Assembly (NCBI GenBank): GCA_018667995.1
Contig: JABIQT010000676.1
Location: 1-13,303, forward strand
Length of the DNA stretch: 13,303 nt
Direction of reading: 5' to 3'
DNA from: Candidatus Latescibacterota bacterium
GTDB lineage: Bacteria > JAAXHH01 > JABIQT01
Shown: in pieces, positions 1,739-8,106 of the stretch
Layout of the letters: the number at the start of each line of letters is the position of its first letter
Numbering within the stretch: the first letter of the stretch is position 1
Position numbers and translations under genes: made by a program
The notes under the pieces: model-generated
Told to the model about the DNA's origin: nothing
The model's database searches: none
What the model saw: only the letters and a program-made list of their open reading frames with translations

Positions 1739-1769
1739 TTTGAAAATCCCAAAAAAAAAGTATCTTTAG
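1739..1769 (+). promoter_or_regulatory. FCB/Bacteroidetes-type promoter candidate
   Basis: TTTG at 1739-1742, an 18-nt spacer containing an A9 run, and TATCTTTAG at 1761-1769. This is close to the Bacteroidetes consensus TTTG-N(17-23)-TAnnTTTG. Transcription would begin near 1776 and read into a structured leader and a small peptide ORF. It lies in a gene-free stretch with no competing ORF. This is a match by eye only. Confidence 0.45.
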
Positions 1770-1784
1770 TAGCTTAAAGTGCAT

Positions 1785-1899
1785 CCGCGCATGTGTATGT
1801 CGAATCTCACGCACACGCGGTTCAATTCATTTTCATTCACACAATTCGTCTGCATGCAACACACCATATGTGCGATTTTCGAATTCCAGATTAACGCAC
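1785..1899 (+). promoter_or_regulatory. Structured leader with two hairpins
   Basis: Hairpin A pairs CCGCG (1785-1789) and TGTG (1792-1795) with CACA (1812-1815) and CGCGG (1816-1820), leaving a CA bulge. Hairpin B pairs GTGCG (1870-1874) with CGCAC (1895-1899) across a 20-nt loop and ends three bases before the AAGGAGG Shine-Dalgarno of the 38-codon ORF. I recognise no known riboswitch class. A role in translation or stability of the peptide mRNA is inferred. Confidence 0.35.
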
Positions 1900-1916
1900 G
1901 GAAAGGAGGCGGCACG

Positions 1917-2033
1917 ATGGCAATGAATCTCTTCTATTGCCCAAGAGTCCCGGCAGTAAGTAATGCCAAGCTTCAAGTCAAGGGTTCAAATGGACTCGAA
2001 TTCCCGTCTCCGGAGTGTTGGTGCAGCGCCTGA
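1917..2033 (+). CDS. Small 38-residue peptide, unknown function
   Basis: An ATG ORF of 38 codons preceded by AAGGAGG at 1903-1909 with an ideal 7-nt spacer, the best ribosome-binding site in the window. The same frame is open further upstream from a GTG at 1779, but the Shine-Dalgarno decides for ATG 1917. The peptide starts MAMNLFYCPRVPA, has a polar middle (NAKLQVKGSNGLEF), and ends PSPECWCSA, giving a C-x-C pair near the C-terminus and one Cys at residue 8. It is not clearly hydrophobic enough for a membrane peptide. It has its own promoter candidate upstream and an intrinsic terminator 41 bp downstream. It could be a secreted or modified peptide, a leader peptide controlling the downstream sigma-like gene, or a structural RNA with an incidental ORF. 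I do not recognise the family. Confidence 0.5.
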   Translation: MAMNLFYCPRVPAVSNAKLQVKGSNGLEFPSPECWCSA

Positions 2034-2074
2034 TAGTATATTAAGGAGTGCTGCCTCAATTTTCCCCTCCGGAG

Positions 2075-2103
2075 CCGCGGGACGCAAATCACGCGGTTTT
2101 TTT
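2075..2103 (+). terminator. Intrinsic terminator after the small peptide ORF
   Basis: The stem CCGCG (2075-2079) / CGCGG (2092-2096) encloses a 12-nt loop and is followed directly by seven T residues (2097-2103). It sits between the 38-codon ORF and the sigma-like gene, whose start is only 44 nt beyond the T-tract, so it could act as a full terminator or as an attenuator for that gene. Confidence 0.6.
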
Positions 2104-2147
2104 AATGTCCGAAATTATCAGTGTTTTAACCGGGGGAAGGCCACTCA

Positions 2148-2625: not shown

Positions 2626-2661
2626 AAAACCGCCGTGCTTTCCAGCACGGCGGTTTTTTTT
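2626..2661 (+). terminator. Strong intrinsic terminator after the sigma-like gene
   Basis: A perfect 14-bp stem pairs 2626-2639 (AAAACCGCCGTGCT) with 2644-2657 around a TTCC loop, and a run of eight T residues spans 2654-2661. The A-run on the left means it could also work on the opposite strand. It cleanly separates the sigma-like gene from the kelch operon. Confidence 0.93.
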
Positions 2662-6546: not shown

Positions 6547-8106
6547 CTATAGCCAGCGCTCTGCCCACTCCTTTGACGTCACGAGCGCAGCCTCTAATTC
6601 AGCCTGGTGTTCGGGCAATGTGTCTTGAACGATCGCCAGTGTGGGAATGGCGGCTAAATCCACCTCGGGCGGAACAAACGGATTGTGACCCGATTCATAT
6701 ACGCCTGTGGAGCCCTGACCCGGTGCGCCGCAGTAGAGATGATAGGCACTGCGGCAGTATCTGTGAAACGGATGATCATGAGGAAGATGAGCGCCGTGCT
6801 GAAACAGAGGAAATAGTGGCAGATGGAGATCACACCCATTCTCACCGAAAATGAGATACTCCTCATAGCGGTTGTGCAGCGACTCGATGAGGCGAGATAG
6901 CCCGTCCAGCAAGTCATTCTCGGGATCTCGAGGCATCCATCCGCTGATATCAAGCATGGCCCCATCCGTACCAAATGTATCGGTGACCCAAGAAATCCGA
7001 TTCAGCATGTGCTGTCGGAAGGTTACTTCCCCCAGATTCAGAGCCTGCCAGATTGGTTCCGTCGACAGATCCTCATCCCAGTCTGTCCAATCACAGATTT
7101 CCGGCATCCCGAGTTGCATTCGGGATACGGCGGGCTCCAGGTGCAGCGTTCGCGTATTGGTGTAGTTTGATGCGACGGCCCCGAACATCGGGGCGACGTG
7201 CATACCAAGCTTGTGGGCCCCGTCCACCAGCCGGTGAAGCGCAGCCGCGCCTCCACAAGCCTCGGAAGGTTCGTATATCGGGTAGTTCCAATAATATCGG
7301 CCGTCCCAACCAGGCAGATAGAGCAGAACCTGCCGGCCGTCTATGCGCTCAGCAATCCATTTCAGAATCTGAAGCTGTCGCTCAAAAGTATTGAATACGT
7401 ATCCGCTCCACCCTTCGCAGTGCATGTTCAGGACAAGGCTTATCTGGCGAAACCAACAAGGCACATCCGGACGATCACTCCATGCTTGCAGGCCGATATC
7501 CCGTTCCAGCATGCCGTACCACAGATCCTTTGCGCCCTCCGAATCTCCAGGCAGCAGAAGTCGCCATTTCGAACCAGACATGGTTGCAGATCTAACCTGG
7601 CTTCCATTGTCTTCGGAAAGATTGAAGACATGATTACCGGAATACTCCCGATATACACACCACCGGCGATACCGCGGCGCCGCCGAATCCGGCAAGACCG
7701 CCACGCGACCAGTCTCTGTTTCGATCTCTGGATATGCGGTCGTACTCAGATCCGAACTGGGCCAGCAAGTGATCTTTTCATCTGCTTCGGCCACGGGCTT
7801 GGCCAGATCCCGAATAAGGATTGAGAGTCCTTTTATATCGTGCTGGTGCCGGCCTGTGGCCTGAAATGTCAACGTGTCTCCCTCACGCCGCAATTCGGCG
7901 GAGAAACTGCCCTCCTCTTTACGCTGGCCGCCCGCATAGCGTAATCCATCCGCCTCCACTCGGATTCCCCGCGACACACCAGTAACGGCGACCCTATCAG
8001 GATCAATTCCAAATACGTTCTCGAAAGTCACGATTCGAAAAGCGAATCGCAGATCCGAGAATGCAACGTAGAAATCGGCAAAATCGAAACCGAATTTTTG
8101 GATCAT
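6547..8106 (-). CDS. Glycosidase-like TIM-barrel protein, family uncertain
   Basis: A 519-residue minus-strand protein; ATG ends at 8106 with GGAG six bases upstream. It has no signal peptide. The N-terminal half (about 1-220) is beta-rich and resembles the beta-sandwich of clan-D or similar glycosidases. From about residue 225 a barrel-like pattern follows: LLYLPGWDGRYYWNYPIYEP (261-280), LVDGAHKLGMHVAPMFGA (293-310), FGTDGAMLDISGW (378-390) and YLIFGENGCDL (417-427). The strand-end acids Asp386 and Glu422 sit where a nucleophile and an acid/base would be expected. The layout resembles unclassified glycosidase-like families such as the DUF6259 type, but I cannot confirm membership. It is convergent with the epimerase gene (43-nt gap), inside a carbohydrate cluster, and probably has its own promoter at 8245-8273. 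Confidence 0.6.
   Translation of the reverse strand: MIQKFGFDFADFYVAFSDLRFAFRIVTFENVFGIDPDRVAVTGVSRGIRVEADGLRYAGGQRKEEGSFSAELRREGDTLTFQATGRHQHDIKGLSILIRDLAKPVAEADEKITCWPSSDLSTTAYPEIETETGRVAVLPDSAAPRYRRWCVYREYSGNHVFNLSEDNGSQVRSATMSGSKWRLLLPGDSEGAKDLWYGMLERDIGLQAWSDRPDVPCWFRQISLVLNMHCEGWSGYVFNTFERQLQILKWIAERIDGRQVLLYLPGWDGRYYWNYPIYEPSEACGGAAALHRLVDGAHKLGMHVAPMFGAVASNYTNTRTLHLEPAVSRMQLGMPEICDWTDWDEDLSTEPIWQALNLGEVTFRQHMLNRISWVTDTFGTDGAMLDISGWMPRDPENDLLDGLSRLIESLHNRYEEYLIFGENGCDLHLPLFPLFQHGAHLPHDHPFHRYCRSAYHLYCGAPGQGSTGVYESGHNPFVPPEVDLAAIPTLAIVQDTLPEHQAELEAALVTSKEWAERWL

Follow-up and report, generated by a model that had tools for sequence, protein, structure and literature searches.

A candidate ribosome-read attenuator leader of a helix-turn-helix regulator gene in Candidatus Latescibacterota

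The locus studied here lies in a 13,303-nucleotide stretch of Candidatus Latescibacterota DNA, referred to as the window, and it raises the question of whether a short, well-formed open reading frame (ORF) encodes a peptide with a function of its own or belongs to an RNA that controls the next gene. A preliminary description had presented positions 1739-2103 as a self-contained unit encoding a 38-residue, Cys-containing peptide. The unit is not self-contained, since 1740-2147 is the 5' leader of a gene for a helix-turn-helix (HTH) protein at 2148-2579. Comparative sequence analysis and RNA folding form the evidence throughout. Based on these, 1740-2147 would be a ribosome-read attenuator leader of the HTH regulator gene, to which we give a probability of about 0.7, and we hold with high confidence that the locus is an attenuator leader rather than the gene of a functional peptide.

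All parts of the leader are on the + strand. The promoter candidate that had been noted, TTGAAA (1740-1745) and TATCTT (1761-1766), is present in the sequence, but it is weak, with a 15-nt spacer, and a consensus promoter scan did not call this pair and called another site only. As one example among some of the homologous loci, L023 has a better promoter, TTGACA..TATCAT, at the equivalent place. The promoter candidate is followed by an operator-like box, AAAGTGCATCCG-cgca-TGTGTATG (1776..1799), the core of which precedes the leader in nearly all of the 16 genomes sampled from the phylum. The near-ideal Shine-Dalgarno (SD) sequence, AAAGGAGG (1902..1909), and the 38-codon ORF (1917..2033), which begins with ATG at 1917 and ends in ECWCSA-TGA (TGA at 2031-2033), are as first described, and a strong SD is present in all 16 genomes. 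A longer in-frame GTG ORF at 1779-2033 (84 aa) was rejected, having no Pfam match and no SD. The tail of the 38-codon ORF contains the 5' arm of a putative anti-terminator helix, CCCGTCTCCGGAG (2003..2015), which was defined by pairing and by invariant codons. An apical stem, P2 (TGCAGCGCC ... GGAGTGCTGC, 2022..2054), is supported by folding and covariation and has the stop codon close to its loop. The 3' arm, CTCCGGAG-CC-GCGGG (2067..2081), was defined by pairing and overlaps the intrinsic terminator, CCGCG...CGCGG-TTTTTTT (T7; 2075..2103). The presence of this terminator after the ORF was confirmed by sequence and folding; a simple terminator scan missed it on the + strand because of its long loop region. 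The HTH gene starts 44 bp past the T-run and is preceded by CCGGGGG (2130..2136), its probable SD region. It encodes a 143-aa protein with a Sigma70_r4-type helix-turn-helix and no WhiB match in Pfam, and the protein scored below the cut-off of every curated NCBIfam model shown. A further terminator, CCGCCGTGCT-TTCC-AGCACGGCGG-T8 (2630..2661), lies downstream of the HTH gene; thus, the unit appears to be monocistronic, consisting of the leader and one regulator. The leader peptide and a 481-bp segment each occur in one copy in the genome.

The phylum sample consisted of 16 genomes from five genera, with 12 genomes in the best-sampled genus. A homologue of the HTH protein was found in all 16 genomes, as was the same order of leader elements: box, SD, short ORF, CTCCGGAG in the ORF tail, stop codon, second CTCCGGAG, terminator and HTH gene. 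Because this order is common to every genome, the arrangement is beyond chance. The box is AAAGTGCATCC or a close variant, the ORF ranges from 25 to 38 codons, and in G014 and G015 the second CTCCGGAG is shorter or differs slightly. The start, frame and stop position of the leader ORF are kept in 15 of the 16 genomes. In the remaining genome, G002 (L015), codon 3 is apparently a TGA, at which ribosomes would stop short of the 5' arm; this TGA may be a sequencing error. Searching relatives with the peptide by tblastn returned weak matches (E 0.04-0.9), which were set aside because the true HTH-locus homologues were not among them; the true leader-peptide homologues were missed as their sequences are too divergent.

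The pairing of the two arms was well conserved in the phylum. The 5' arm, CYCGU-CUCCGGAG (2003-2015), pairs with CUCCGGAG-CC-GCGRG (2067-2081) in 97.3% of cells, against 28-58% for slid controls, and within each genome the 5' arm sequence is unique or nearly so. Only one arm pair is compensatory, being C-G in four genera and U-A in the fifth, and is broken in G012; this position is unpaired in the terminator. P2 also covaries, and its covariation score was attained by 0 of 500 shuffles. Searches against Rfam at gathering and relaxed thresholds gave nothing credible, only a chance-level match on the minus strand. The 13-bp arm helix and the terminator share CCGCG. The window sequence (G000) reaches its lowest energy with the full arm helix (-39.7 kcal/mol, z -2.99, 0/200 shuffles). 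In most other genomes, the minimum-energy fold is a shortened 8-bp arm helix together with the terminator. Since these two can coexist, arm pairing need not block termination in most other genomes, and since their combination folds lower, any exclusion of the terminator there would have to be kinetic. This coexistence is the main weakness of the attenuator reading. In every genus, CCTCCGG of the 3' arm can also form 7 bp with the sequence that precedes the HTH start codon, which is CCGGAGG, or CCGGGGG in the window. No covariation of this pairing was found in the phylum, as 628 of 5040 swaps were equally good, and CCGGAGG is present at 5 of 34 other SDs. Given the failed swap test and this background count, pairing of the 3' arm with the SD of the HTH gene is only suggestive in the window's phylum.

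Orthologues of the HTH gene with a leader ORF were found in a second phylum, in which 65 of 84 genomes have homologues of the HTH protein at about 41-48% identity. In families f42, f171 and f172, the HTH gene is also preceded by a leader ORF with a strong SD, and the ORF tail, GGYRCCUCUGCC, pairs with GGCAUAGGYRC before the HTH gene. In the f42 set, 97.3% of this helix is paired and all changes are one-sided. Both arms were present at 33 loci. Of the 33 ORFs, 21 run through the 5' arm in frame 1, 11 in frame 0 and one in frame 2, and all have their stop codon between the arms. At each of the 28 loci of the first set, the start context reads CUAUG[C/U]C and is complementary to the 3' arm, GGCAUAG; folding without the 5' arm paired the start codon with the 3' arm in 11 of 11 sequences. 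Thus, the 3' arm in the second phylum has two partners, the ORF tail or the start codon. A likeness in SPxxW/WC was considered as peptide homology between the phyla and was rejected, since other species of the second phylum read the same RNA in other frames. Not every homologue has this leader. Family f169 (L158-L161) has neither the leader ORF nor the GGCATAG arm, and the single f170 locus has a different hairpin that sequesters the SD. The same gene in G202 (L069 / L163) has a different leader, in which a 10-bp hairpin, CUUAUCUCCU/AGGAGAUAAG, covers the SD; upstream are two candidate small ORFs, one encoding MLKSPRWLAT and one of 28 codons.

The good SD, the stable start and length, the terminator after the ORF and a tail motif, PSPECxW, kept in most genomes of the phylum would all suit a 38-residue Cys peptide that is itself functional (as a signal, toxin, bacteriocin or modified peptide) and has a dedicated promoter and terminator. 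The substitution pattern argues against this. Purifying selection on the peptide body was not found in the 12-genome genus, in which pN/pS was 1.81 for the ORF body (codons 2-25) and 1.14 for the tail, in comparison to 0.06 for the HTH gene, while codons 27-29 (TCT CCG GAG), which are in the 5' arm, had zero substitutions, synonymous sites included. An unconstrained ORF body next to invariant 5' arm codons indicates that the RNA is conserved and not the peptide. Thus, the comparison of homologous loci proposed in the preliminary description gave a divided result: the frame and SD are kept in 15 of 16 genomes, whereas the ORF body takes substitutions regardless of codon position. Conservation of the Cys residues was also partial, with the first Cys (TGT) present in 14 of 16 genomes but Cys or Trp lost in two other genera, and conservation of the stretch with the first Cys is explained by RNA pairing. 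The tail of G014 is GRPSP-stop, without Trp and Cys, and that of G015 is cut short to GRC-stop. As first noted, the peptide belongs to no recognised family, with no match in Pfam or PHROG, and no peptide-maturation or export genes were recognisable among the other genes of the window. The apparent premature stop in G002 and the three frames in which second-phylum ORFs read the conserved RNA also count against a peptide product. The frame changes and pN/pS values largely refute a functional peptide, which we regard as extremely unlikely; of the roles first proposed, signal, toxin, modified peptide and leader, only the last survives. Judging from these sequences, the ORF is kept as a translated track and its product is not. 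A tidy-looking small-peptide gene can therefore be an RNA switch with an irrelevant peptide, and a change of frame with the RNA conserved is a clean test between the two.

An attenuator could also respond to a specific signal, by a codon stall or nascent-peptide arrest in the tail that senses cysteine, tryptophan or a small molecule. Tails in the window's phylum often end in CxWxxP-stop, and Pro-stop resembles the stall site of TnaC. The TGT and TGG codons, however, pair in the arm/P2 hairpin, so the RNA explains them, and the tails of G014 and G015 have different endings. No conserved run of regulatory codons was found in the leader ORF across the phylum, nor one shared with all of the second phylum. 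No conserved nascent-peptide sequence was found either: the body is unconstrained, the tails differ by genus, and three frames are used in the second phylum. In addition, a ribosome stalled in the tail would hide the 5' arm, so that starvation would switch the gene off. Such a specific signal is unlikely. Another reading is that the RNA is recognised by a protein or ligand, such as the HTH product or a metabolite, with the ORF a mere passenger. In its favour, conservation is higher in the arms than in the ORF, the terminator is compatible with the 8-bp helix, and G002 may have lost its ORF. Against a passenger role, an SD and an ORF that crosses the 5' arm, with its stop between the arms, are kept in 15/16 and 33/33 cases in the two phyla, and no Rfam family was matched at the gathering score; recognition by a protein or ligand is considered very unlikely.

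The attenuator leader read by ribosomes would operate as follows. RNA polymerase would make the leader as a ribosome translates the 38-codon ORF, the tail of which contains the 5' arm (CCCGUCUCCGGAG); the stop codon is in the loop, followed by the 3' arm (CUCCGGAG-CC-GCGGG). A ribosome located on the ORF tail would cover the 5' arm, so that the CCGCG/CGCGG-U7 terminator forms and the regulator is OFF; in any read-through RNA, the SD could be covered by CCUCCGG, which would also be OFF. When ribosomes fall short of the tail, through poor initiation or an upstream stall, the 13-bp arm helix would form first and take the CCGCG strand from the terminator, turning the regulator ON. The two structures would thus exclude each other in vivo, and the leader peptide would be a by-product. 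This polarity, with the ribosome on the tail as OFF and the paired arms as ON, is likely. In both phyla a free 3' arm would mean OFF, through the terminator in the first and a blocked start codon in the second. Since neither a particular amino acid nor a codon run is conserved, general translation impairment is proposed as the signal, although we rate general translation stress at even odds. More tentatively, the leaders of both phyla may represent an ancient translation-stress sensor that turns the same orphan HTH regulator ON when a frame-indifferent leader ORF is left unfinished. Its output would be a terminator in one phylum and start-codon sequestration in the other, and the regulator would control its own gene and a small regulon through a AAAGTGCATCCG-N4-TGTGTA box. 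If true, this would provide a sensing device and a candidate regulon for an uncharacterised regulator of two phyla known mostly from draft genomes.

The leader resembles those of whiB7 and toiL in its logic, by analogy, and is not a WhiB7 system. In the whiB7/wblC attenuator of Actinobacteria, the regulator is induced when ribosomes run into trouble in the uORF (PMC13236596, citing Lee et al. 2022). The likeness is a short uORF and a terminator-type leader before a transcription regulator gene, while the locus studied here has a Sigma70_r4-type HTH instead of WhiB, occurs in other phyla and is a candidate for induction by translation stress. The toiL uORF of E. coli topAI senses stress without specificity for one amino acid, and its RNA switch around the downstream ribosome-binding site is like the second-phylum version (PMC12121999). 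However, toiL controls a toxin-antitoxin operon by Rho-dependent termination, whereas the window has an intrinsic terminator (PMC12121999). The ilvB1 (PMC13236596) and trp leaders have a mutually exclusive anti-terminator and terminator, with a ribosome at the stop codon masking the anti-terminator arm, which is the arrangement proposed for the leader studied here; unlike these, the window has no regulatory codon run and no biosynthetic gene downstream.

The box upstream of the leader may extend to other genes. Autoregulation of the HTH gene via this putative operator is plausible. In the second phylum, 60 of 81 genomes have a near-identical box, AAAGTGCATCCGAAAATGTGT, at the HTH gene and at other places, with up to seven copies per genome within two mismatches, while the reversed-pattern control gave 0 in nearly all genomes and one match in total. 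Upstream of the second-phylum HTH gene, the box AAAGTGCATCCGAAAATGTGTATA (L099-L128) often occurs twice. It is also found before genes for an ABC-2 permease, a DAO oxidoreductase, an RsgA-like GTPase and a PcfJ-like protein, as well as uncharacterised genes. In some copies the similarity extends into about 60 nt of flanking sequence, and the second-phylum box may be a dispersed repeat. The box was also considered as a two-part sigma promoter, which was rejected because its halves are only about 4-5 nt apart. In the window's phylum, exact copies outside the HTH locus are few and mostly coding-looking. Exact AAAGTGCATCCG boxes in apparently non-coding sequence were found at L037 (G000:C618:384), where the box is followed by TATAAATGTGTGATAG, and L039 (G001:C55:11938), and these two loci are possible members of a regulon.

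By sequence resemblance only, a DUF4202-like gene appears to come after the HTH gene in several genomes (L061, L062 and L064), not in the window, and an upstream PorV/UPF0164-like gene is common to the window and G001. Elsewhere in the window, a 519-aa ORF at 6547-8106 on the minus strand had no Pfam match at E up to 0.001, and it is surrounded by a sugar-related block comprising GH28, mandelate racemase-like, GlcNAc 2-epimerase and two PhyH genes.
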